Below, one piece after another: positions 4,062 through 34,155 of a stretch of DNA of 36,089 bases (its first letter is position 1; each line of letters starts with the position of its first letter). Source of the DNA: a virus; the IMG/VR virus record IMGVR_UViG_3300024261_000980, positions 1-36,089 of that record; one strand, written 5' to 3'. Under the pieces are notes generated by a model. That model did not search any database and was not told where the DNA came from. It saw only the letters and a list, made by a program, of their open reading frames with translations. Both the position numbers and the translations under genes were made by a program.

Positions 4062-5693
4062 ATGTCAGAACAAAAAGAGTATATTGTTGTTGTTAAACCA
4101 AATGAAGATTTAGCTATATTAGATTCTGAAATGTCAGCTAGTACAGGTAGTGGTGTAGTACCAAATAGAGCAGTAGAGTGTTGTGATGCTTGTGAGCACG
4201 ATACACGAATGACACACTGGATGCTTACAGATGAAGAAGCAAAAGAATTAGAAAAAGATGAAAGAGTTTTAGGTGTTGACTTACCTTATGATAATGACCC
4301 GACTGTAGAAAGAGTCCGTTGCGCTCGTCAATCTGGAACTTTCAATAAGACAACAACAAATGATGGAGTAAATTGGGGATTGTCAAGATGTTCTTCTCAA
4401 GTTAATAACTTTGATGATGTTACTTCACTCTTTGATAATTACAAATATGCTATGACGGGCGAGGGTGTTGATGTTGTTATATTTGATTCTGGTATTGAAC
4501 TTGACCATCCAGAATTTAAAGATGCAGCTGGTAATGCTAGAATCCAAACAATAGATTGGTATTCAGATCATGGTGGGCCAGGTAATCCTCATTCCGGTGG
4601 TTCTTTAGGTGGTGCATTTTATACTGATTCGGATGGTCATGCAACTCATGTAGCTGGAATATCTTGTGGTAAAACATATGGATGGGCAAAAAATGCCCAT
4701 ATTTATGTTATGAAGATTTTTGATACTGATGCTATTGGCGATCAAGTTGGTATGGATTTAATAAAATACTGGCATGAAAATAAAGGTACTGGCCGCCCTA
4801 CGGTTGTTAATATGAGTTATGGTTATTATCATGTTATTGATGGTTGGAATGGTGCAGCAGCTGGAGATAGTGGACAACATTGGGATACTTTTACAAATCA
4901 GATGGATGTTTGGACTTTTGGTGATACAAATTTTACTACTAAATCTGAAGTAAATCAGCAAGTTGATGTTTCTTATGTTTATAGATTATCAACTAGATTA
5001 GCATCAGTTGATGCAAAATTAGATCAATTAATCGCTGCAGGTATTCATGTTACTATTGCTGGTGGTAATAGTGCTGATGTGCAATATAATTATTCAGATG
5101 ATGCAAATGATAACTATAATGATTTTTTTAGTAGACCAAGCCATGCAGGTGGAGCTCCTGTCTATTATCACCGTGGTTCTAGTCCAAGAGCATCTACAGT
5201 TAAGAGTTCTGAAATGGTAGTAACTAATATCGGTGTTGAAATAGAAAATAGTAAAGAGGTATTATCTTCCAACTCTGCATGTGGTGAAGCTATGGATATT
5301 AATGCGCCAGGAACAAATATTACATCAGCATTTTGTACATCTGGAGCTGGAACGTCTGACTATCCACCTGATCCTAATTTTAAAATTAAATCTATATCTG
5401 GTACGAGTATGGCAGCACCACAAGTTGCTGGAGTTATGGCTTTATATTTACAAAATGAACCAAATCTTACACCAACAGAATTAAAAGCAAAAATCTTACA
5501 TGATGCAAAAACTGGTTTACTATATGATACTGTTTGGGATCAAAAGGATTTAGGAAAATATAGATATATAGAAAATTCTATTAATTCATTTTTTAGACCA
5601 GATAGAGGTTTATTTGGTGCTCCTAACCTAGTTCTTTATAATAGGTTTGTTGGTGATGTTTTTGTTCAGTATGTAACATCTGGCGGTGATTAA
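4062..5693 (+). CDS. Subtilisin-like serine protease (peptidase S8)
   Basis: A 543-residue subtilase with the full catalytic set: Asp142 in VVIFDSGIELDHPEF, His193 in DGHATHVAG, oxyanion Asn336 in AGGNS, and Ser449 in SGTSMAAPQVAG. Residues 1-75 look like an inhibitor I9-type propeptide (EYIVVVKPN) with two Cys in ECCDAC. No signal peptide is visible, so it probably acts in the cytoplasm or as a virion component rather than being exported by Sec. It has its own spacing from the upstream gene and a GGGG-containing ribosome site. A hairpin terminator follows at once. S8 proteases occur in some marine myoviruses. The substrate is unknown; virion maturation or host degradation are both possible. 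Confidence 0.9.
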   Translation: MSEQKEYIVVVKPNEDLAILDSEMSASTGSGVVPNRAVECCDACEHDTRMTHWMLTDEEAKELEKDERVLGVDLPYDNDPTVERVRCARQSGTFNKTTTNDGVNWGLSRCSSQVNNFDDVTSLFDNYKYAMTGEGVDVVIFDSGIELDHPEFKDAAGNARIQTIDWYSDHGGPGNPHSGGSLGGAFYTDSDGHATHVAGISCGKTYGWAKNAHIYVMKIFDTDAIGDQVGMDLIKYWHENKGTGRPTVVNMSYGYYHVIDGWNGAAAGDSGQHWDTFTNQMDVWTFGDTNFTTKSEVNQQVDVSYVYRLSTRLASVDAKLDQLIAAGIHVTIAGGNSADVQYNYSDDANDNYNDFFSRPSHAGGAPVYYHRGSSPRASTVKSSEMVVTNIGVEIENSKEVLSSNSACGEAMDINAPGTNITSAFCTSGAGTSDYPPDPNFKIKSISGTSMAAPQVAGVMALYLQNEPNLTPTELKAKILHDAKTGLLYDTVWDQKDLGKYRYIENSINSFFRPDRGLFGAPNLVLYNRFVGDVFVQYVTSGGD

Positions 5694-11586: not shown

Positions 11587-12089
11587 TGTCGAATAAATCT
11601 AAAAATAAAGGAAAGAGTTGGGAGAGGGATGTTTGTAATTTTCTTTCTGATTTGTATAGTCAATCATTTATTAGAGTTCCCAATAGTGGAGCCTTTGTAG
11701 GTGGTAAGAATGAGTTTAGAAAAGAGACACTTTCATTAGAACAGATAAAGTTAATGCGTGGTGATATTGTTCCGCCACTAAATTATCCATACTTTGTAGC
11801 TGAGTGTAAGAACTATGCAGATTTTCCTTTTCATCAAATGGTTCACAATAATAGCATTAGGCTCCTAGATGAATGGATAGGTCAAGTGGTACATGATTGC
11901 AACCAAGAGAAAGATGTTTGGATGTTGTTTATTAAGATTACCAGAAAAGGTCAGTATGTAGTTTATGATACACGAATACTTGATGCCCTTGAGTATGGTA
12001 TAAGATACAAAAATTACTGGTTTTGTGATATGAGATATTTTTTTGATTGTTACAAAGATAGAATCGAAATGAAATGGAAAGGTGAGTGA
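11586..12089 (+). CDS. PD-(D/E)XK nuclease, Holliday-junction-resolvase-like
   Basis: A 167-residue protein. The motif order fits archaeal Hjc or similar resolvases: NKGKSWERDVCNFL (Glu13), RVPNSGAFVGGKNEF, Asp in MRGDIVPP, and the E-x-K pair in FVAECKNY. The last two elements are the PD-(D/E)XK core. It overlaps its neighbours by 1 base at each end, so it is translated with them. T4 resolves branched DNA with endonuclease VII, which belongs to another fold. A function in recombination or packaging is likely but not proven. Confidence 0.75.
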   Translation: MSNKSKNKGKSWERDVCNFLSDLYSQSFIRVPNSGAFVGGKNEFRKETLSLEQIKLMRGDIVPPLNYPYFVAECKNYADFPFHQMVHNNSIRLLDEWIGQVVHDCNQEKDVWMLFIKITRKGQYVVYDTRILDALEYGIRYKNYWFCDMRYFFDCYKDRIEMKWKGE

Positions 12090-13135
12090 TGGTTGAGAAA
12101 AAGATAAATATTGCGTTTAATGGTTTTGGTAGAATCGGTAGAAACCTAGTTAGGAAGTTGATTAACGAACCAAAGTATAATATCGTAGCAATTAATGCTA
12201 GGACAACTGTTGACGTTAGAGCTCACTTGTTTAAGTATGATTCTATTCACGGTCACTTTGACGGTAAGATTTCATTTGAGTTGGATAACTTAATCATTAA
12301 TGGTAAGACGATTCCCAACTTTGATAGAAACAGTCCATCGAAGTTGCCTTGGAAAGAATTAGAAGTTGATTACGTTATAGACTCAACTGGTAAGTTTACA
12401 GATAAGCATTCATTATCTCAACATATAGAAGCTGGTGCGAAGAATGTTATTGTTACATCACCAGCAGCAGATGTAGATGCTACATTAATATACGGAGTAA
12501 ACGAAACAGATTATAAGGTAAAGGAGAATAATATAATTTCTGCTTCATCTTGCACTACTACTTGTTTGACACCATTGTTAAAATTATTACAAAAACAGTA
12601 TGGTATTAAACAGGGATTCATTACAACCGTTCATTCATTCACTATGGGACAAACACTATTGGATTCATCCCATCCTGATTTACGAAGAGCAAGAGCTGCA
12701 ACCTTGTCAATGATTCCGACATATACTGGTGCAGCTAAAAATGTCGGAGTTGTTTTACCTGAACTAGAAGGTAAACTTGACGGGTCAGCAATCAGAGTTC
12801 CAGTTCCAGATGTATCACTATTGGATATGTCGATAGAGTTGGAGAAAGATGTTGATATTGAATCATTACATGAAATGTTTAATAAAGAGTCAAAAGGTAA
12901 GATGAAAGGTATTATTGATGTATCATGTGAGCCACTGGTTTCCGTTGACTATATTGGTAGTACTTTTTCGTCAGTAATTGATTGCCTTTCTACAAACGTG
13001 CTAAACAAGAGATTTTTGAAGTTGTTAGCATGGTATGATAATGAGCATGGATACTGCTGTAGAGTCATTGATTTACTGGATTATTTGACTAAAAAGACCA
13101 ATCCCCCTAAGTCCCCACAAACAAAGGGTTTATAA
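12089..13135 (+). CDS. gap: Glyceraldehyde-3-phosphate dehydrogenase
   Basis: A 348-residue GAPDH. The Rossmann start is FNGFGRIGRNLVRKL. Catalytic Cys155 lies in SASSCTTTCLTP (usual ASCTTNCLAP) and His182 in TTVHSFT. The phosphate-site region DLRRARAATLSMIPT-x-TGAAK and the C-terminal AWYDNEHGY are intact, so it looks active. The loop after the second strand reads VAINART where most NAD enzymes have an Asp (IND); B. subtilis GapB, which prefers NADP, has INAT. NADP use is therefore possible. It overlaps the nuclease stop (TGATG). GAPDH is an unusual phage gene; it might redirect carbon or supply NAD(P)H or ATP during infection. Confidence 0.93.
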   Translation: MVEKKINIAFNGFGRIGRNLVRKLINEPKYNIVAINARTTVDVRAHLFKYDSIHGHFDGKISFELDNLIINGKTIPNFDRNSPSKLPWKELEVDYVIDSTGKFTDKHSLSQHIEAGAKNVIVTSPAADVDATLIYGVNETDYKVKENNIISASSCTTTCLTPLLKLLQKQYGIKQGFITTVHSFTMGQTLLDSSHPDLRRARAATLSMIPTYTGAAKNVGVVLPELEGKLDGSAIRVPVPDVSLLDMSIELEKDVDIESLHEMFNKESKGKMKGIIDVSCEPLVSVDYIGSTFSSVIDCLSTNVLNKRFLKLLAWYDNEHGYCCRVIDLLDYLTKKTNPPKSPQTKGL

Positions 13136-13818: not shown

Positions 13819-13831
13819 AAGGAATTATATT

Positions 13832-14686
13832 ATGGAGTATGATATTGTTTATTGTAATGATGGAGTTACACGAGCTGTTCCAGTTGTTAAAGGAACACCG
13901 CAAGACCCTTCAATTGGATCATTGAAAGTTGTGAAAGAAGAAAAGGTAAAACCAGAGAAACCTAAGATTTCTATTCAAGATAGAATCAATGAGCAGGTTT
14001 CTACTTTTATCGGTGAGATTGAAGGTAAGGTTGATGATTTTGTTGATAGTGATTTTAAAGATAAATATGACTGTTATAATCATTTGAGTGAGATGGGCTG
14101 TAAGTCAGTTCATGCTCGTAAAATGAGACAGTTTTATATTGAATGTTATAATGAATCAGTTGACGTTTACAATGCTGACGATGATTACCTTAACGAAGCA
14201 TGGGGACATTTGAAACCAAAATACCATAAAAAGATTATGGATTTCTATGGTGTTATTGTGGATGACATTGAACGTCTTATTAAAAACTCTACAGCTCAAC
14301 GAAAGCCTAGAAAGAAGAAAACACTATCTGCAAATAAACTTATTAAGAGTTTAAAATATCAGGTAGAACATCCTGAACTTAGATTAGCAAGTGTAAATCC
14401 AGAAAAGATTATCGGTGCTAATGAATTGTGGGTTTATAATACTAAGTACAATAAGATGGGCGTTTACTATGCTGAGAATAGTGTTAGAGGTCTTAGTGTC
14501 AAAGGTTCTACTATACAAGGTTTTGATAGTAATGCATCAATACAAAAGACGGCAAGGAAGCCCGAAGAAGTATTGGATAAATTGACAAAGAGAACTTTGA
14601 ATAAAAACATCAAGCAGATGAAGACTAAGGAACAGGACGTTACTGGTCGCATCAATGCTCAAACTATCTTACTAGGAGTATTCTAA
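13832..14686 (+). CDS. Conserved T4-like marine phage protein
   Basis: A 284-residue protein of mixed charge with a coiled or helical centre. Residues 155-215 contain KPRKKKTLSANKLIKSLKY and IGANELWVYNTKYNKMGVYY, which I recall as conserved in T4-like cyanophages. Many Lys and Asp residues suggest interaction with nucleic acid. Its stop codon shares one base with the next ATG. No function known. Confidence 0.65.
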   Translation: MEYDIVYCNDGVTRAVPVVKGTPQDPSIGSLKVVKEEKVKPEKPKISIQDRINEQVSTFIGEIEGKVDDFVDSDFKDKYDCYNHLSEMGCKSVHARKMRQFYIECYNESVDVYNADDDYLNEAWGHLKPKYHKKIMDFYGVIVDDIERLIKNSTAQRKPRKKKTLSANKLIKSLKYQVEHPELRLASVNPEKIIGANELWVYNTKYNKMGVYYAENSVRGLSVKGSTIQGFDSNASIQKTARKPEEVLDKLTKRTLNKNIKQMKTKEQDVTGRINAQTILLGVF

Positions 14687-14964
14687 TGTTTAAGAATTTT
14701 ATTATTATATTTTTGTTCTTTCTATTATGTTCTTTACTAATTCAGAAACCTGATAATGCTAAACTCTTGATACAAGATTTGGCAACATCTAAAGAAATGG
14801 TTATGGATGGTGCAGAGTATGTTAAGAAAACTTTTGATAAAGAGTTCACGGTTGTAGAAGAAAAGTTTGCTCCATTTGAACAGAACAAAGGTGCAGAAAG
14901 TCCAGTACCATTACTTGAAGCTCTGAAAGAAATTGAAGAAGATACATTTTTTACTGATAAATAG
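14686..14964 (+). CDS. Membrane-anchored small protein
   Basis: A 92-residue protein with a hydrophobic N-terminus (FIIIFLFFLLCSLLI) that is a signal anchor or signal peptide, and an acidic helical remainder. It precedes the M23 peptidase gene by 13 bases and may work with it at the envelope. No family recognised. Confidence 0.55.
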   Translation: MFKNFIIIFLFFLLCSLLIQKPDNAKLLIQDLATSKEMVMDGAEYVKKTFDKEFTVVEEKFAPFEQNKGAESPVPLLEALKEIEEDTFFTDK

Positions 14965-14977
14965 GGAGTACTATATA

Positions 14978-15595
14978 ATGAAAACTATATTGACAATCTT
15001 TTTTACTATATCGTTTTTGGGTAATGCATTTGCACTTGAATGTACCTTACCATTATGTAAGAATATTCAAAAAAGATCAGCTATGTTTAAAGAAATGGAT
15101 AGCTGGGATAGTTATAAGTCACCTAGAAAATATACTATTACAAAGGTATCTTTTACGCCACCTAGTAGACCTAAACCAGCTAAACGAAGGGTAAAGTCTA
15201 AGTTACTTTGGCCGTTGAAGAGTGGAAGGATTTCTTCAAAGTTTGGATATAGGAAAAATCCTTTTAATGGAAAACGTCAGCACCATAATGGATTAGATAT
15301 TGCAGCTCCTACGGGTAGATTGATTAGAGCCTCTGCTGATGGTGTTGTTACCAAAAGTGGTAGAATAACGAATGGTTGTGGTTATGGTGTTTATATCCAG
15401 CATGGTAAGTATGAAACAATTTATTGTCATGCTTCAAAAGTACTTGTTAAAAAAGGTGACAGTGTAAAAAGAGGTCAGGGTATTGCTAAGGTTGGTAGTA
15501 CTGGATATTCTACTGGCCCCCATCTACATTTTGAGATAAGAAAAAATAAGAAATCTTATAACCCTTTAAATTTTCTTGCAAGATATGAAAAGTAA
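14978..15595 (+). CDS. Secreted M23 (LytM-type) peptidase
   Basis: A 205-residue protein starting at the ATG that has GGGAG 10 bases upstream. A signal peptide (MKTILTIFFTISFLGNAFA) is followed by a basic linker and an M23 domain from about residue 72. Zinc ligands are visible: His in HHNGLDIA (H-x3-D) and the H-x-H of GPHLHFEI. It cleaves peptide cross-links of peptidoglycan. Sec export points to a role in lysis or cell-wall remodelling from inside the infected cell rather than in the tail. It overlaps the dCMP deaminase gene by 11 bases. Confidence 0.88.
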   Translation: MKTILTIFFTISFLGNAFALECTLPLCKNIQKRSAMFKEMDSWDSYKSPRKYTITKVSFTPPSRPKPAKRRVKSKLLWPLKSGRISSKFGYRKNPFNGKRQHHNGLDIAAPTGRLIRASADGVVTKSGRITNGCGYGVYIQHGKYETIYCHASKVLVKKGDSVKRGQGIAKVGSTGYSTGPHLHFEIRKNKKSYNPLNFLARYEK

Positions 15596-18941: not shown

Positions 18942-20054
18942 ATGTTGCACTATAAAAAAAATACATTATTATGTTTTTTTATATCATTTCTGTTATTGGG
19001 AGTAAGTACAATAGTCAATGCTGATCACACTTACAAAACAAGTATTGTAAAGAAAGTACTTCCAGCAGTTGTAGAAATACACGCAGAAAGAGGCAAGATT
19101 AGTGCGGGAATGCAACCACAAAATCGTGGTGGGTTTAAGTTTCGTCAACCTCAAGGTCAACAAGCACCTCAAGGTAGGCCGAGTCCGAAACAAGACCCAC
19201 AGCACGTTGGTTCTGGTTTTGTTATTAGTTCAGATGGTTATATATTGACTAATGCTCACGTTGTCAATAATATTTTTGATGGCGGAAAAGTAATTGTTAT
19301 CTTTCAGAGTGATAAATCATACGAAGCAGATTTAGTTAACTACGATGAAGAGTCAGATATAGCTTTATTGAAAATCAATAATGCTGAACATGGTAAAGTA
19401 TTTGAATATTTAGAATGGGGTAAAACTCCAGAAATGGGACAGGATGTTATTGCTATTGGTTCACCAATGGGACAGTCGTTCACAGTTACATTTGGAAATG
19501 TATCATCGCTAAATAGGTTTGTACCTAAGTCAGCACCGTTTGTACCTTACATTCAAACTGATGCTTCTATCAATCCCGGCAATTCTGGTGGGCCACTGTT
19601 GAATTCTGCTGGATATGTAATAGGTATTAACACTATGATTATTACAGGTAGTGGTGGAGCAGGAGCAGGTAGTGTAGGAATTGGATTTGCTATTGACGGT
19701 GATTATGTTCAGAAAACAGTTTCACAACTCAAAGCACTTCAGAAAGGTCAGAGAATTCATAGACCATATATGGGTATTGTTTTCCGTCCAGTAAAAAAAG
19801 AGGACTATGGGAAACTAGATCATATGTTTAAGTATGGTTATGGTGCTTATGTGCAAGAGATAGTTCCAGATAGTCCAGCTGAAGGTATTCTGAAAGTTGG
19901 CGATATTATTACAAAGATTGATATGAAAATTTTCAAATGGAAACTATTAGCTACAAAGGTTAAATCTAAAAAAGTAGGTGATAAAGCGTATTTTATAATT
20001 TTGAGAGATGGGATGTTAATTCCATTGACATTCACTATGAGTGAAATGAAATAA
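18942..20054 (+). CDS. Periplasmic HtrA/DegP-type serine protease
   Basis: A 370-residue protein with an N-terminal signal sequence (LLCFFISFLLLGVSTIVNA). The trypsin-like domain has His106 (LTNAHVV), Asp139 (ESDIALL) and Ser215 (GNSGGPLLN). A Gln/Pro-rich insert (residues 58-85) lies before the protease core. One PDZ domain follows (PYMGIVF; GAYVQEIVPDSPAEGILKVG), against two in E. coli DegP. It would degrade or refold envelope proteins. AGGAG lies about 7 bases before the ATG. A phage-coded envelope quality-control protease is uncommon; it could protect the infected cell or process secreted phage proteins. Confidence 0.9.
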   Translation: MLHYKKNTLLCFFISFLLLGVSTIVNADHTYKTSIVKKVLPAVVEIHAERGKISAGMQPQNRGGFKFRQPQGQQAPQGRPSPKQDPQHVGSGFVISSDGYILTNAHVVNNIFDGGKVIVIFQSDKSYEADLVNYDEESDIALLKINNAEHGKVFEYLEWGKTPEMGQDVIAIGSPMGQSFTVTFGNVSSLNRFVPKSAPFVPYIQTDASINPGNSGGPLLNSAGYVIGINTMIITGSGGAGAGSVGIGFAIDGDYVQKTVSQLKALQKGQRIHRPYMGIVFRPVKKEDYGKLDHMFKYGYGAYVQEIVPDSPAEGILKVGDIITKIDMKIFKWKLLATKVKSKKVGDKAYFIILRDGMLIPLTFTMSEMK

Positions 20055-20760: not shown

Positions 20761-21126
20761 ATGGCAGATGAATTAAATGTTGATGACTATGATGATTTTG
20801 ATTTTGGTTTCAGTACAGTTGATGAAGATGAAGTCAAAGAGTTTGAGAGTCAAGTTAAGACAAGAGTAGCTGAAGAAACATCAAGTATTTCTACTGGACT
20901 TGAGGACAAGATTAATGAGTTATTGAAAGCAAGAGAAGGTGATACCAGTAGGGTAGAAGAGTTAGAGAAAAAAAGAAAAGAGGATTTGTTGAAAATTGAG
21001 AAAATCATTATGCCTCTGTTAAAGAATTTACAAAAGAATCCTGATGACGTTTATATTAAATGGCCTAATCGTAAAGTAGTTATTGAGAAGCAAATTAAAA
21101 AGATTGTTGCTATTACAAGGAGCTAA
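20761..21126 (+). CDS. Conserved T4-like marine phage protein
   Basis: A 121-residue protein. The first 45 residues are strongly acidic (DDYDDFDFGFSTVDEDEVKEF). A coiled-coil centre follows, then PDDVYIKWPNRKVVIEKQI, which I recall from T4-like cyanophages. GGAG precedes the ATG. Its stop overlaps the ribosome site of the IscA-type gene. Function unknown. Confidence 0.68.
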   Translation: MADELNVDDYDDFDFGFSTVDEDEVKEFESQVKTRVAEETSSISTGLEDKINELLKAREGDTSRVEELEKKRKEDLLKIEKIIMPLLKNLQKNPDDVYIKWPNRKVVIEKQIKKIVAITRS

Positions 21127-21127
21127 T

Positions 21128-21454
21128 ATGGATTTTGTAACCATTACACCAAAAGCATCAGATCAGGTGAAGTATCTTATTAGTGAATTGCCTAGTGATT
21201 TTGGTTTACGTCTAGCAGTTAAGGGTGGTGGATGTTCAGGACTTTCTTATGACTTGAAATTTACACCCGAAGAAACTGGTGATACGGTTTTTGACTATAA
21301 TGGCTATAAAGTGTTCATGGACAAAAAGAGTATGATATACCTGAAGGGTATGGCTTTAGATTTTCAGGATGGATTGAATGGGAATGGCTTTCAGTTTATT
21401 AATCCAAACGCTACATCTACTTGTGGCTGCGGAGAGTCTTTTTCAATGAGTTAA
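21128..21454 (+). CDS. A-type iron-sulfur carrier (IscA/HesB family)
   Basis: A 108-residue protein starting at the ATG with AGGAG 7 bases upstream. The three family cysteines are present: GGGCSGLSY and the C-terminal TCGCGES. The opening ITPKASDQVKYLI is typical. These proteins carry iron or Fe-S clusters to target enzymes. HesB-like genes are widespread in marine phages. Here possible clients are the ferredoxin encoded at 24828-25184 or host enzymes. Confidence 0.9.
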   Translation: MDFVTITPKASDQVKYLISELPSDFGLRLAVKGGGCSGLSYDLKFTPEETGDTVFDYNGYKVFMDKKSMIYLKGMALDFQDGLNGNGFQFINPNATSTCGCGESFSMS

Positions 21455-24827: not shown

Positions 24828-25184
24828 ATGGCAACCATAATTCTTGATGATTGTATCAACTGTGGGGTTTGTGAGCCCGAATGCCCTAATAACGCAATAG
24901 ACGATGGTTCGGGTGAAGGTCTTGATTTTTTCTATATTGACCCAGAACTTTGTACTGAGTGTGTAGGTTTTCATGGAGAAGAGGCGTGCCAGGAAGTATG
25001 CCCCGTAGACTGCTGTATTCCTGATGAAGATATTGTAGAAACAGAAGAAGATTTGTTGGCACGAGCTAATAAGTTACACCTTCAAGAAGTTTTTCTCTCA
25101 GATGATACGTTTCCAGAGTTGGATGCTTTGACGAATAAAACTTCATTGTTTCGTAACCCAGCAAGAAAGAACGCGGGGCTGTAG
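24828..25184 (+). CDS. Two-cluster [4Fe-4S] ferredoxin
   Basis: A 118-residue ferredoxin. Cluster motifs are CINCGVCEPECP near the N-terminus and CTECVGFHGEEACQEVCP in the middle; the second has the insertion typical of the YfhL/Allochromatium type. A 40-residue C-terminal extension follows. It would carry electrons at low potential; a partner is not obvious, though class II reductase, the cytochrome or host enzymes are candidates. The last 10 bases, including the stop codon, lie inside tRNA-Ala. Confidence 0.9.
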   Translation: MATIILDDCINCGVCEPECPNNAIDDGSGEGLDFFYIDPELCTECVGFHGEEACQEVCPVDCCIPDEDIVETEEDLLARANKLHLQEVFLSDDTFPELDALTNKTSLFRNPARKNAGL

Positions 25185-26170: not shown

Positions 26171-27424
26171 ATGAGTTCAAGTGCAAGACTTAGAGAAACA
26201 CATACAAAACTTGGAGGCGGTCAAAATATTTTTAATAAGATTGCTAAAAACCAAGAAGCTGTTTTGTCTGATTGTGTTGATAAAGTTATAGATGATGTGC
26301 AAAAAGAACATCCAGATTTAGAAATTCGTAGAAAGGATTTACTAAAAAAAACAGAAATAGCTGAAGCTCTTAATAATGGTTATAGGCCGGAAAATGATAA
26401 ATCATTTGTAAAACCTGATGGTGGAATAATCGAAGTAAAAATTGGTAAGAGTTGGTATCCGTTATTAATTTCAGAAATGAAAAAACAGGGGACGAATAAA
26501 GCACGTGAAAAAGAAGGAAAGAAAAAACAAGCAAAAGGCAATGCCATTGAAAGAGCAGCAAAAAATGTTGATGAGTTTAGATTATGGTGTGCAAATAAAA
26601 AATTAAATTATTTTCCTTATGTAATTTTTGCTTGTGGATGTGATTTTCATGCTGGTTCTACTATGTATGATCGTTGTGACGCTCTAGCGAGTTATAAACC
26701 AAGAAATAATATTAACATATTAACAGATTGTCGTATACAACCTGCTACACTTTTTATTCAAGAAAAGTCTTGGACAAGAACCGAAGTTTTGAAAAGGTTA
26801 AGAGAGTGTGTGGATGTTACGCTTAATCATATTTTACAGATGAAAAAAGGTAAAAACTTTAGTGCTAATAATAGTAAAGGTATAAGAAAGAAATCTGATT
26901 TTTATGAAACACCATATAGCATAACAGAACATTTATTTGAAAGAGAGGATTTTGATAAAGATTTATCTGTTTGTGAACCTGCTTGTGGTGGTGGTGCTAT
27001 TGTTGATATATTAAATAAACATTGGACGGATAGAGTTTTTTCTTATGACCAAGAAAAGGATTTTTTAAAAGAAAATGATAAGTATGATTATATTGTAACA
27101 AATCCCCCATTTTCTTTAGCACAGGAGTTTATACAACAAGCTAGAAAAGTCGCCAGAAAGAAGTTTGCATTTTTATTACCACTTTCATATTTACATGGTA
27201 AAAAGAGATATGATGAGATTTTTACGAGCGATACATATAAATTAAAAACTGTTTATGTATTTACTCGCTATCCTATGTTGGGTGATAAGTTACGAAAAGA
27301 TGGTAAGTATAAAACTGGTATGATGGTATATGCTTGGTATGTTTTTGAAAGCACTTATACTGGAAAACCTACTATTGAATGGATTGATAACAATGCAGAT
27401 GTTTTGAGTAAAAAAGATTTATAA
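26171..27424 (+). CDS. EcoRI-like restriction nuclease fused to DNA methyltransferase
   Basis: A 417-residue fusion. Residues 1-200 resemble EcoRI: KKTEIAEAL (EcoRI KKTEINEAL), VKPDGGIIEVK with Asp83, Glu102-x-Lys104 in ISEMKKQG (EcoRI AEAKHQG), GNAIERAAKN with Asn124 and Arg128 (EcoRI GNAIERSHKN), and FPYVIFACG. The GN-x-x-ER motif contacts AATT in EcoRI and MunI. Residues about 240-400 are an amino-methyltransferase: FYETP, SAM motif VCEPACGGGAIVDIL, catalytic NPPF (311-314). Nuclease and modification in one chain is the type IIC/IIG layout. At least eight GAATTC sites exist in this window, so the phage must be protected if the site is EcoRI's. It has its own promoter (P5). Likely a competitor-exclusion or host-DNA-degrading enzyme. 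Confidence 0.88.
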   Translation: MSSSARLRETHTKLGGGQNIFNKIAKNQEAVLSDCVDKVIDDVQKEHPDLEIRRKDLLKKTEIAEALNNGYRPENDKSFVKPDGGIIEVKIGKSWYPLLISEMKKQGTNKAREKEGKKKQAKGNAIERAAKNVDEFRLWCANKKLNYFPYVIFACGCDFHAGSTMYDRCDALASYKPRNNINILTDCRIQPATLFIQEKSWTRTEVLKRLRECVDVTLNHILQMKKGKNFSANNSKGIRKKSDFYETPYSITEHLFEREDFDKDLSVCEPACGGGAIVDILNKHWTDRVFSYDQEKDFLKENDKYDYIVTNPPFSLAQEFIQQARKVARKKFAFLLPLSYLHGKKRYDEIFTSDTYKLKTVYVFTRYPMLGDKLRKDGKYKTGMMVYAWYVFESTYTGKPTIEWIDNNADVLSKKDL

Positions 27425-27561: not shown

Positions 27562-27780
27562 ATGAAAAATCAGAGAATTTTAAGAAGAAAGAAACAAGTT
27601 AAATTAAATAAAAAGAGAGTTGAAAGGAATAAAAAAAGAAATAAAATTAAAAAATATGATTTTTTAGAAAAAACAATGGAGAATAGTACAAAGAAGAAAA
27701 GACAATTAAAATCAAATAAATACAATGTACAACCAGCACAAGTACCGTCTGCTCAACCTGTATTGAAACATTCATCATAA
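27562..27780 (+). CDS. Very basic small protein
   Basis: A 72-residue protein from the ATG preceded by a perfect AGGAGG. The first 55 residues are dense in Lys and Arg (RRKKQVKLNKKRVERNKKR), suggesting nucleic-acid binding. A Pro/Gln/Ala tail follows. Its stop shares one base with the next ATG. Confidence 0.6.
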   Translation: MKNQRILRRKKQVKLNKKRVERNKKRNKIKKYDFLEKTMENSTKKKRQLKSNKYNVQPAQVPSAQPVLKHSS

Positions 27781-27929
27781 TGAAACATATCAAAGAGGAT
27801 AGTGTATGGAAAAAGGTATACAAACCATATTCAACTAAGCTTGTTAAATTCTTTAGTTGGGAAAGGATAAAAAAAGATGACAGACCCATTGAGGAAAGAA
27901 GAGCAGAAAGAGCCAGAAAAAGAACTTGA
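27780..27929 (+). CDS. Small basic protein (49 aa)
   Basis: A 49-residue frame whose ATG overlaps the previous stop (TAATG). It contains SWERIKKDDRPIEERRAERA and many Lys and Arg. Its last 53 bases overlap the UBact-like gene in another frame. The tight coupling on both sides supports translation, but no family is recognised. Confidence 0.5.
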   Translation: MKHIKEDSVWKKVYKPYSTKLVKFFSWERIKKDDRPIEERRAERARKRT

Positions 27930-28044
27930 TAATCCCAGCCCAAAGTCAGACAAAACTAGACCGGGCCGAGATAAACTTTTTGAAAGGATGAGGAAGGTAG
28001 ACCCTCAGCAGTCAGAAAAGTATAAGCAAAGAACTGGTGAATAA
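27877..28044 (+). CDS. UBact/Pup-like small protein modifier
   Basis: A 55-residue, hydrophilic, probably disordered protein. AAGGA lies about 8 bases before the ATG. The second half reads RPGRDKLFERMRKVDPQQ and then SEKYKQRTGE at the very C-terminus. This matches the end I recall for UBact, the Pup-like ubiquitin-type modifier of Nitrospinae, Nitrospirae and other Gram-negative phyla (RMRKVDPDQA, then YRQRSGE). In Pup systems the C-terminal Glu is joined to lysines of target proteins by a PafA-type ligase, and tagged proteins go to a proteasome. No ligase, Dop or proteasome gene lies in this window. It may be used with host enzymes or block them. Next to it are a tiny gene and a cytochrome c. 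Confidence 0.72.
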   Translation: MTDPLRKEEQKEPEKELDNPSPKSDKTRPGRDKLFERMRKVDPQQSEKYKQRTGE

Positions 28045-28045
28045 T

Positions 28046-28165
28046 ATGTGGATATATCAATGCGATTCTGGAGAGTATAGAGAAGATAATTTTATAAGAT
28101 TACTTTCCACAATATTTTTTCATAGACTTTCACACTTTTTAAAGGGGGAAGGGTTCAATGATTAA
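28046..28165 (+). CDS. Tiny hypothetical protein (39 aa)
   Basis: A 39-residue frame beginning 1 base after the UBact-like stop (MWIYQCDSGEYREDNF). Its end overlaps the start of the cytochrome gene by 8 bases. It has no strong ribosome site of its own and may depend on translation of the upstream gene. Weakly supported. Confidence 0.4.
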   Translation: MWIYQCDSGEYREDNFIRLLSTIFFHRLSHFLKGEGFND

Positions 28166-28577
28166 AATTCTATTACCATTAGTTACAATGATGTTTATCA
28201 CGAATACAGTGTATGCAACCTGTACACAATTTCGTAACACTAAAACTGCACCGTCAATGTTCCAGAAACTTGATAAGACTGCGACTGCTGATAAGAAGAA
28301 AGGAAAGATGATTTTCCAGAAGACTGCAAAACCAATGGCATGTAAGATGTGTCACGGTAAGAAGGGTGACGGTAAAGGAAAACTTGGTAAAGCACTAACA
28401 CCAAAACCAAGAAACTTCACCTGTGCTGACGTTATGAAGGATATCTCGCCCGGCCAGATGTTCTGGATCATTCAGAATGGCTCAAAGGGCACTGGGATGT
28501 CTCCACAGAAGTCTCTGAAACCTAGAGAAATCTGGGACGTTATCAAGTATATCAGAGAGGACTTGAATAATGGATAA
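28158..28577 (+). CDS. Secreted class I cytochrome c
   Basis: A 139-residue protein with a signal peptide (residues 1-20, LLPLVTMMFITNTVYA). The heme site is Cys62-x2-Cys65-His66 (CKMCHGKKGDGKG) and the axial Met is Met114 in GTGMSPQKSL. The C-terminal helix IWDVIKYIRE is typical. It would be a soluble periplasmic electron carrier matured by the host Ccm system. A GGGGGAAGGG ribosome site precedes the ATG. Phage cytochromes are rare. It could feed or divert electrons at a terminal oxidase during infection. Codon use is somewhat less AT-rich than its neighbours, which hints at acquisition from a host. Confidence 0.92.
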   Translation: MIKILLPLVTMMFITNTVYATCTQFRNTKTAPSMFQKLDKTATADKKKGKMIFQKTAKPMACKMCHGKKGDGKGKLGKALTPKPRNFTCADVMKDISPGQMFWIIQNGSKGTGMSPQKSLKPREIWDVIKYIREDLNNG

Positions 28578-28656
28578 CGAATATCTTCCAGCTGCGATTG
28601 GGATTCTTGGAATGATTATAGCTTATGTAGTTGCAATCAAGTGGTTGTTTAGTTGA
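28570..28656 (+). CDS. Tiny membrane protein (28 aa)
   Basis: A 28-residue frame (PAAIGILGMIIAYVVAIKWL) that overlaps the end of the cytochrome gene by 8 bases and the start of purS by 4. A single helix next to a cytochrome recalls the tiny CcoQ/CydX-like subunits of oxidases, but that link is speculative. Confidence 0.5.
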   Translation: MDNEYLPAAIGILGMIIAYVVAIKWLFS

Positions 28657-28901
28657 AATGGGAAGTCACTTCTTTATTGAGAGATGGTATTAAGGGTAGT
28701 GAGCAGGAAGTTATTATGAAAGCATTAATACAGTTAGGGTTTGAAGAAATTACAGAAGTTCTTTATGGTGCTGTATACAATCTTACATTGGATGATAAGA
28801 TGTCCGAAGATGAGCAAAGGTTGAGGATTAAAGAAATGTGTAGTACAAATATTATTAATACTAACTTATATGATTTTAAAATCAAACTTATTGAGGAGTA
28901 G
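28653..28901 (+). CDS. purS: PurS, subunit of FGAM synthase
   Basis: An 82-residue protein with a TTG start overlapping the previous stop. The pattern EVTSLLRDGIKGSEQEVIMK, LGFEEITEVLYGAVYNLTL and LRIKEMCSTNIIN, then YDFKIKLIEE, matches PurS, the small subunit that joins PurL and PurQ in purine synthesis. purS is known from several marine T4-like cyanophages. The phage would raise purine supply by supporting host PurLQ. It precedes the dNMP kinase gene by 2 bases. Confidence 0.82.
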   Translation: MKWEVTSLLRDGIKGSEQEVIMKALIQLGFEEITEVLYGAVYNLTLDDKMSEDEQRLRIKEMCSTNIINTNLYDFKIKLIEE

Positions 28902-28903
28902 CG

Positions 28904-29458
28904 ATGTGGACTAATAGAGATAATCAACCTTTAGTTATTGGGTTTGCTGGTAAAGCTAGAAGTGGTAAAGATACTGCTGGAAAATACTTGGTTGACGAAT
29001 ATCAGTTTTTACGTTATTCTTTTGCACAACCTTTAAAAGATGCAACAAAGATAATGTTTCATCTTACTGATAAACAGATTGAGAATAAAGAGAAACCAGC
29101 AGAGCCGTGGGGTAGATCACCAAGAGATTTATATCAACGGGTAGGAACAGATATTGCTCGGGCGATTGATATCAATGTATGGGTGAAGGGTGCAGATATA
29201 TTTATGAGAAATAATCCTGGCCGTTCTATTGTTGTTACCGATGTTCGTTTTTCTAATGAAGCATTCTGGATTAGAGATCAAGGTGGCATTGTTGTTTACC
29301 TTCAAAGTGATACTAGAGGTATCTATGAAAATGGTGAGCATTCAAGTGAGAATGGTATGAAGGGCGATGATGTTGATATTATCATACAGAATGATGGGAC
29401 TATCAATGCCCTGCATGAAAAACTAGAAGAACTAAAAACTGAAAGGTCTTTTGCATGA
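28904..29458 (+). CDS. Deoxynucleoside monophosphate kinase, T4 gp1-like
   Basis: A 184-residue kinase. The P-loop GFAGKARSGKDTAGKYL lies at residues 11-27. Substrate-lid motifs LYQRVGTDIARAI and VVTDVRFSNEAFWI are typical of T4 gene 1 type kinases. It is shorter than T4 gp1 (241) but holds the core. T4 gp1 accepts dTMP, dGMP and hydroxymethyl-dCMP; here modified cytosine appears to be made on DNA, so the last activity may not be needed. It overlaps the methyltransferase gene by 4 bases. Confidence 0.88.
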   Translation: MWTNRDNQPLVIGFAGKARSGKDTAGKYLVDEYQFLRYSFAQPLKDATKIMFHLTDKQIENKEKPAEPWGRSPRDLYQRVGTDIARAIDINVWVKGADIFMRNNPGRSIVVTDVRFSNEAFWIRDQGGIVVYLQSDTRGIYENGEHSSENGMKGDDVDIIIQNDGTINALHEKLEELKTERSFA

Positions 29459-33127: not shown

Positions 33128-33237
33128 AAGAAACAATAGTATGGAGTATGATAGGTATTGCTGTTGTCATGTGTTTGGCTTTAGGACTGTATGAATTGAT
33201 TAACTTCATGGAAAGTTGTCAATGTGTTAGTCTATAA
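33124..33237 (+). CDS. Tiny membrane protein (37 aa)
   Basis: A 37-residue frame with one helix (WSMIGIAVVMCLALGLYELI) and a C-terminal CQC. Its ATG overlaps the previous stop by 4 bases. It is the third one-helix or partly hydrophobic small protein in this stretch. It ends just before the tmRNA promoter. Function unknown. Confidence 0.55.
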   Translation: MKETIVWSMIGIAVVMCLALGLYELINFMESCQCVSL

Positions 33238-33247
33238 CGAATTGCTG

Positions 33248-33253
33248 TATAAT
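33248..33253 (+). promoter_or_regulatory. -10 box before the tmRNA
   Basis: A perfect TATAAT lies about 7 bases before the predicted start of the tmRNA acceptor piece. No good -35 box is seen at the right distance. The upstream TATAACGAAT also occurs in promoter P7. Confidence 0.5.
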
Positions 33254-33259
33254 CTGTAT

Positions 33260-33496
33260 AACGGAACTATATAGGACGGGGGTTCGATTCCCCCTTCCTC
33301 CACCAAATTCTATTACGGGGGAAATCGGTTTCGACTGTATATGGAAGGTATACGGACAGCACGGAGAAGAATGATGGCTCCGTTATCAATCATTCAAATC
33401 ACAAACGCAAACGATTATTCGTATGCTATTGCTGCGTAGTTAAGTAGCTAGGGTTTTGGTAGTTTTCCTCGTAACAGAATAAACTACCGCTTATTA
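33260..33496 (+). ncRNA. ssrA: Circularly permuted two-piece tmRNA
   Basis: The acceptor piece comes first (about 33260-33305): P2 strand TATATAG (33268-33274), T arm GGGGG-TTCGATT-CCCCC, acceptor strand TTCCTCC and encoded ACCA. An 11-base spacer follows, then the coding piece from 33317 starting GGGGGAAATCGGTTTCGACTG. The acceptor stem pairs fully with the alanine mark G3-U70 (33319 with 33299). P2 forms between 33335-33341 and 33268-33274. The tag frame 33407-33436 encodes ANDYSYAIAA, with stop TAG; it resembles ANDENYALAA. A final hairpin GGTAGTTT / AAACTACC (33458-33489) fits a late pseudoknot element. It rescues stalled ribosomes and marks proteins for proteolysis. The exact ends are approximate. 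Confidence 0.93.
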
Positions 33497-33516
33497 ATAT
33501 AATATGGAGATTTATT

Positions 33517-34155
33517 TTGAACGATTTAACTGAGAATTTATTATTCAAAGTAGGTAAGGTACATTCTGGTTTTATCAAACATACATATACAATTTATGAT
33601 AGGTCTTATAAACCTGATATTTTGGATGGTGTATTAGAGTCAGAGTTTGCATATCTTTTTGAAAGATTATTTTATGATAGAGTTCAGAGTTTAAAACTTT
33701 CTTGTGATGTGATTGAAAAAAAAGAGATGGATAGTTTAATAGAAGGTTTTGGGAATGGTGTCGGTTATAGTGAAGATGCTTTGAAATTTAAAAAGAATAT
33801 CAACAAAGCTGATTCTGCTGTGATAAAAAAGTCTGGATACACTGCAGACCATTTTGAACAACCACAAATGAAATGTAAAAAAGTATTAATAGAACAAAAT
33901 AAAAATAAAAAGACTTGGATATTTGATGAATATGTAAAATTTTATATTACTTGTGCTAGAGTTAATTTAGTAACAAGTAATGAAAATACTTTATTAGGTA
34001 GTAAAACAAAAGAAGATAGAAGATTATATTATTCTGATATATTTGGTGAAGATAGACAGTTAAAAATATATGATATAAATGGAAATATTATTGATGCTGA
34101 TGTTGATAGCTCTATGTATCAATTAAAGCCATCATTGATAGCTTTTTTCAAATAG
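33517..34155 (+). CDS. Hypothetical protein between tmRNA and tRNA-Gly
   Basis: A 212-residue protein with a TTG start and GGAG 8 bases upstream. It is mixed alpha/beta, with DRSYKPDILDGVLESEFAYL near the N-terminus and a KKTWIFDEYVKFYITCARV centre. No motif of a known enzyme is visible. Its place in the RNA gene cluster suggests it may be expressed together with the tmRNA. Function unknown. Confidence 0.6.
   Translation: MNDLTENLLFKVGKVHSGFIKHTYTIYDRSYKPDILDGVLESEFAYLFERLFYDRVQSLKLSCDVIEKKEMDSLIEGFGNGVGYSEDALKFKKNINKADSAVIKKSGYTADHFEQPQMKCKKVLIEQNKNKKTWIFDEYVKFYITCARVNLVTSNENTLLGSKTKEDRRLYYSDIFGEDRQLKIYDINGNIIDADVDSSMYQLKPSLIAFFK

Follow-up and report, generated by a model that had tools for sequence, protein, structure and literature searches.

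Why would a phage carry the gene for a ubiquitin-like protein modifier, and whose enzymes would use it? This question is raised by the IMG/VR record IMGVR_UViG_3300024261_000980, a fragment of a T4-like marine phage, whose entire 36,089 bases (hereafter called "the window") were analyzed.

Identification of the phage-encoded UBact

The gene lies on the plus strand at positions 27877..28044 and runs from ATG to TAA, encoding a protein of 55 amino acids, MTDPLRKEEQKEPEKELDNPSPKSDKTRPGRDKLFERMRKVDPQQSEKYKQRTGE, which ends in KYKQRTGE. By direct reading of the sequence, the Shine-Dalgarno-like element GGAAAGGA precedes its start (27860..27867, plus strand). The protein matches Pfam PF20513 with 51.7 bits (E = 7.3e-14; cut-off 27.8) and the NCBIfam "equivalog" model NF033388 with 57.6 bits (E = 1.1e-15; cut-off 35), both far above the curated cut-offs, and PF20513 is the sole Pfam family found at E-values up to 1, with no match to the Pup family. 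The PHROGs search gave no match, the PDB profile search gave chance matches only, and PADLOC reported nothing for UBact, nor for PafA or Dop. The motif R-M-x-K/R-VDPxQ...QR-x-G-[E/Q] sits at the extreme C-terminus of this hydrophilic protein of about 55 residues, of which 80% are disorder-promoting and 51% charged, disorder being judged by composition. The 55-residue protein is thus a phage-encoded UBact, and the first-pass annotation, which had read it from the letters as a hydrophilic, disordered modifier of the UBact/Pup type, is borne out by the profile matches and the composition.

The conserved C-terminal part, GRDKLFERMRKVDPQQSEKYKQRTGE (27964..28041, plus strand), is defined by the profile match and the invariant columns, and is expected to bind PafA and Dop, by analogy with the corresponding segment of Pup (PMC8223512). 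The last codon, GAA, encodes glutamate, the ligatable residue. The window protein belongs to the same family as the UBacts of Nitrospinota and Nitrospirota over its full length. It shares with the Nitrospinota proteins the N-terminal MxDPLRxEE, as written for the window copy, and the C-terminal VDPxQSEKYKQRTG, and differs from them in its final residue, in the sequence LFER in place of LLKR or ILKR, and in its genomic location away from the enzyme genes. Pup of the Actinobacteria belongs to another Pfam family, although the two would be alike, as far as can be inferred, as short disordered tags with a C-terminal Gly-Glu/Gln that are handled by PafA/Dop-type enzymes, an ATPase, and the 20S proteasome.

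The UBact locus is maintained in a group of related phages

Within IMG/VR, seven further contigs from this phage group also encode UBact. The tail reads KYKQRTGE or NYKQRTGE in all eight contigs, and the pattern VDPxQSExYKQRTGE is invariant in the seven further ones, in line with the C-terminal pattern that had been noticed in the window copy. As far as each related contig extends, the surroundings are also common to them: in most, a small basic ORF lies upstream, while a deoxynucleotide monophosphate (dNMP) kinase gene and then usually a cytosine methyltransferase gene lie downstream. In the window, the upstream ORF (27562..27780, plus strand) is rich in lysine and arginine; it has blastp matches of 77-81% in L003, L004, L006, and L007, and no match in family searches. 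The dNMP kinase gene (28904..29458, plus strand) is the syntenic partner on the other side, and its start coincides with the UBact stop in contigs L005-L007. Between UBact and the kinase, the window has a c-type cytochrome gene (28158..28577, plus strand; PF00034), described below, and a PurS-like gene (28653..28901, plus strand; PF02700, 43.1 bits; TIGR00302 above the cut-off). A small ORF in another frame (27780-27929) overlaps the UBact start by 53 bases, and has no homologue among the related contigs except the near-identical L002.

Across the related contigs, the dS values of UBact range from about 0.3 to saturation, with dN/dS ratios of 0.03-0.18. These low ratios at strongly diverged synonymous sites indicate that UBact is a functional gene kept by selection. 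The same results bear on whether the ORF might be a functionless passenger, an assembly contaminant from the host, or a chance ORF. Such an origin could be suspected for a small ORF of biased composition in a metagenomic fragment, but it is refuted, to the point of being highly improbable, by the strength of both profile matches, by the phage gene order shared with the seven contigs and the occurrence on a contig that also encodes baseplate and endolysin proteins, by the dN/dS ratios, and by the consistent differences between the phage copies and all host copies.

Some 20 contigs that share this dNMP kinase have no UBact in the DNA compared, and some of them have other small genes at this place; UBact is an accessory gene in the wider phage group. 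A ninth contig (L176/L178) carries a diverged UBact (48.2 bits) that ends in KYKQRVGE. In L178 (IMGVR_UViG_3300009103_001106), a T4-like contig with baseplate wedge, endolysin, PurC, and NifU-like genes, this UBact lies at 13819-13905 on the minus strand, with VGE as its final residues. The part of this contig that was compared has no gene in common with the window besides UBact, and hence it stems either from a second lineage or from a different part of the genome in which UBact has another position.

As for the rest of the window, matches to PHROG families were obtained for its primase, ribonucleotide reductase (RNR), exonucleases, and ThyX. The primase shares 45% identity with its counterpart in Methylophilales phage Melnitz and 44% with the one in Pelagibacter phage Mosig. 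One fused protein (26171-27424) combines an EcoRI-like endonuclease domain (PF02963, 71.7 bits) with a DNA adenine methyltransferase-like domain. Three protease-like genes are present (4062-5693, 18942-20054, and 14933-15595), one for a subtilisin-like protein with weak NCBIfam matches and two for DegP-like and M23-like proteins, which were assigned by eye only.

Nitrospinota as the most likely host

Which bacterium does this phage infect? The closest cellular UBacts, 64% identical along their full length (E = 2e-17), are those of Nitrospinota; those of Nitrospirota come next. The window UBact and the Nitrospinota proteins have the N-terminus MxDPLRxEE and the tail YKQRTG in common, while the Nitrospirota tail is YRQRTG. 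The neighboring c-type cytochrome, which has a signal peptide-like N-terminus, is 60-70% identical to Nitrospinota cytochromes and has a match in 74 of 77 Nitrospinota genomes (best E = 2e-55). The comparison set for these host markers consisted of UBact-bearing genomes, mostly of Nitrospirota, and plasmids: the best identity of the cytochrome in 12 such genomes was 51%, two plasmids gave weak matches only, and the annotated phages gave none. Because both the nearest UBacts and the adjacent cytochrome are Nitrospinota-like, the host is most likely a member of Nitrospinota, the marine nitrite-oxidizing Nitrospina-type bacteria. During infection, the phage cytochrome could take part in the electron transfer of nitrite oxidation.

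Other genes of the window were also compared with these bacteria. The ferredoxin and IscA-type Fe-S genes (24828-25184 and 21083-21454) match many Nitrospinota genomes at about 70-76% DNA identity, and Fe-S genes seem to recur in the phage group. The GAPDH gene (12086-13135) is uninformative about the host, with about 51% identity in Nitrospinota and 48% in plasmid-borne Bacillota genes. For the second half of the window, the DNA comparison with Nitrospinota genomes revealed homologies at the level of genes, and the CRISPR spacers of these genomes, with a few candidates per genome scored, gave no clear match.

An alphaproteobacterial host, assumed in the first-pass annotation, is rejected in view of the Nitrospinota-like UBact and cytochrome. 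The permuted, two-piece tmRNA of the window (33213-33530) may have prompted that guess. This tmRNA is a trait of the whole group: it is also present in L005, L006, L008, L143, L145, L146, L148, L151, and L157, with tags such as ANDYSYAIAA in the wider phage group. The tmRNAs of the Nitrospinota genomes examined fit the ordinary one-piece family along their whole length. Marine phages that infect various hosts commonly have two-piece tmRNAs, which can outlast host switches (PMC9004378), and the permuted tmRNA is therefore no guide to the host.

The host probably supplies the enzymes

The phage contigs provide the tag alone. PafA, Dop, the proteasome subunits, and the ATPase are absent from the window and from the related phage contigs, which are metagenomic fragments, and a profile of Nitrospinota and Nitrospirota PafA found no relative in any IMG/VR contig, which extends the earlier remark that the window has no ligase. 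In cellular genomes, UBact lies beside its enzymes. In the single-cell Nitrospinaceae genome L063, the genes are consecutive, in the order ATPase, Dop, UBact, PrcB, PrcA, PafA, and the other Nitrospinota loci examined contain the same genes in a somewhat changed order. UBact is present in 58 of the 77 Nitrospinota genomes. A place beside the PafA, Dop, and proteasome genes is customary in cellular genomes and does not belong to the definition of the UBact family. The use of the modifier had appeared unexplained, since alphaproteobacteria usually lack proteasomes; with a Nitrospinota host, which has UBact, PafA, Dop, and the proteasome in a complete locus, this puzzle dissolves.

The phage UBacts end in glutamate

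All of the phage UBacts end in glutamate, while 48 of the 49 distinct Nitrospinota UBacts end in glutamine (Fisher p of about 2e-6, with kinship ignored). In pupylation, PafA requires the glutamate form, which Dop produces from the glutamine form (PMC7947786), and a Pup that ends in glutamate makes deamidation unnecessary and enables a dop mutant to carry out pupylation again (PMC12288473). By inference from the Pup system, the phage UBact should be ready for ligation without deamidation by Dop. The main phage group further differs from its hosts in having LFER where they have LLKR or ILKR. This change from LLK/ILK to LFE, consistent at two positions, could affect how UBact binds PafA, Dop, or the ATPase.

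The glutamate may, on the other hand, reflect ancestry instead of adaptation, because this residue is also the last one in the UBacts of a single Nitrospinota lineage (L039) and, with few exceptions, in those of Nitrospirota. In a tree of the 55 UBact columns, the phage copies join Nitrospinota in a single clade when the last column is included, and this grouping is lost when it is left out; the clean grouping is likewise lost when the diverged L176 copy is added. As the tree is this fragile, we make no claim from it about the branch point of the phage UBact, one or two origins, or whether the glutamate is derived.

Proposed use of the phage UBact

How would the phage benefit from a tag without a ligase? 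We propose, with a probability of roughly 0.55, that the virus supplies a pre-activated UBact, which the host PafA uses to raise or redirect proteasomal degradation during infection. The gene most likely originated from the Nitrospinota host and was subsequently kept by selection. The glutamate-ending UBact would be a direct substrate of the host PafA, skipping the Dop step, and PafA would join it to lysines of host proteins, or of selected phage proteins. The host ATPase and 20S proteasome would then degrade the tagged proteins, which would remove host factors or free amino acids for the phage. We count in favor of this proposal that the protein is kept at full length, including the disordered N-terminus MxDPLRxEE common to host UBacts, that the gene holds a conserved position before the dNMP kinase, and that the diverged copy also ends in GE. 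The LFE change in a conserved segment, the glutamate-ending cellular UBacts, and the fragmentary state of the phage records, which may hide a phage ligase in another part of the genome, count against it.

The main rival, which we rank above a simple top-up of the host pool but regard as doubtful, is that the phage UBact jams the system: it would be taken up by PafA, or occupy Dop and the ATPase, and its conjugates would be poorly degraded or removed. Proteasomal turnover in the host would thereby be blocked, protecting phage proteins or freezing a host stress or defense response. Such a decoy fits a tag that comes without a ligase, the phage-specific LFER falls in the very segment expected to contact PafA, Dop, or the ATPase, and a tag ending in glutamate could compete directly for PafA. 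A simple decoy does not need the ligatable glutamate, however, and yet every phage copy has kept it; moreover, the conserved C-terminal half closely resembles that of the host, and the N-terminus is full-length and disordered, as engagement of the ATPase would require by analogy with Pup. The top-up reading is still less likely, and we consider it improbable. Here, the phage gene would only replenish the host UBact pool during the shutdown of host transcription, for normal quality control and with no re-aiming. Many genes of the window are metabolic top-ups of this kind (RNR, ThyX, ferredoxin, IscA-type, and cytochrome c), and closely related phages without UBact exist, but the consistent glutamate ending and the phage-specific LFER residues are left unexplained.

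Returning to the re-aimed tagging, we give about even odds to a broader scenario, in which phages of marine nitrite oxidizers captured the host tag, possibly more than once, fixed the glutamate form that bypasses control by deamidation, and thereby seize the proteasome.

Relation to known systems and implications

The family to which the phage UBact belongs is known, and what is new is a viral copy with a functional-looking C-terminal change. None of the annotated phage records in a collection of 50,697 matches M. tuberculosis Pup or the window UBact, and our literature search, which was incomplete, found no paper on a phage-encoded modifier of the UBact or Pup type, although such papers may exist. 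The closest parallel among phage genes is the tmRNA (ssrA), as in the OM43 phage Melnitz, which likewise provides a degradation tag from the phage and depends on proteases of the host (PMC9004378). Whereas the tmRNA adds its tag to nascent chains when ribosomes stall, UBact would tag lysines of finished proteins, and the window phage, with both a permuted tmRNA and UBact, has two different degradation-tag genes.

The proposed use concerns the main marine nitrite oxidizers, whose phages are little known. Eukaryotic viruses exploit ubiquitin, and the phage UBact, if the proposal is true, would be a ubiquitin-like modifier that a virus employs in bacteria. The change from glutamine to glutamate provides a simple and testable molecular difference between the host and phage tags, and the presence of the phage gene suggests that phage infection involves the UBact-proteasome system.
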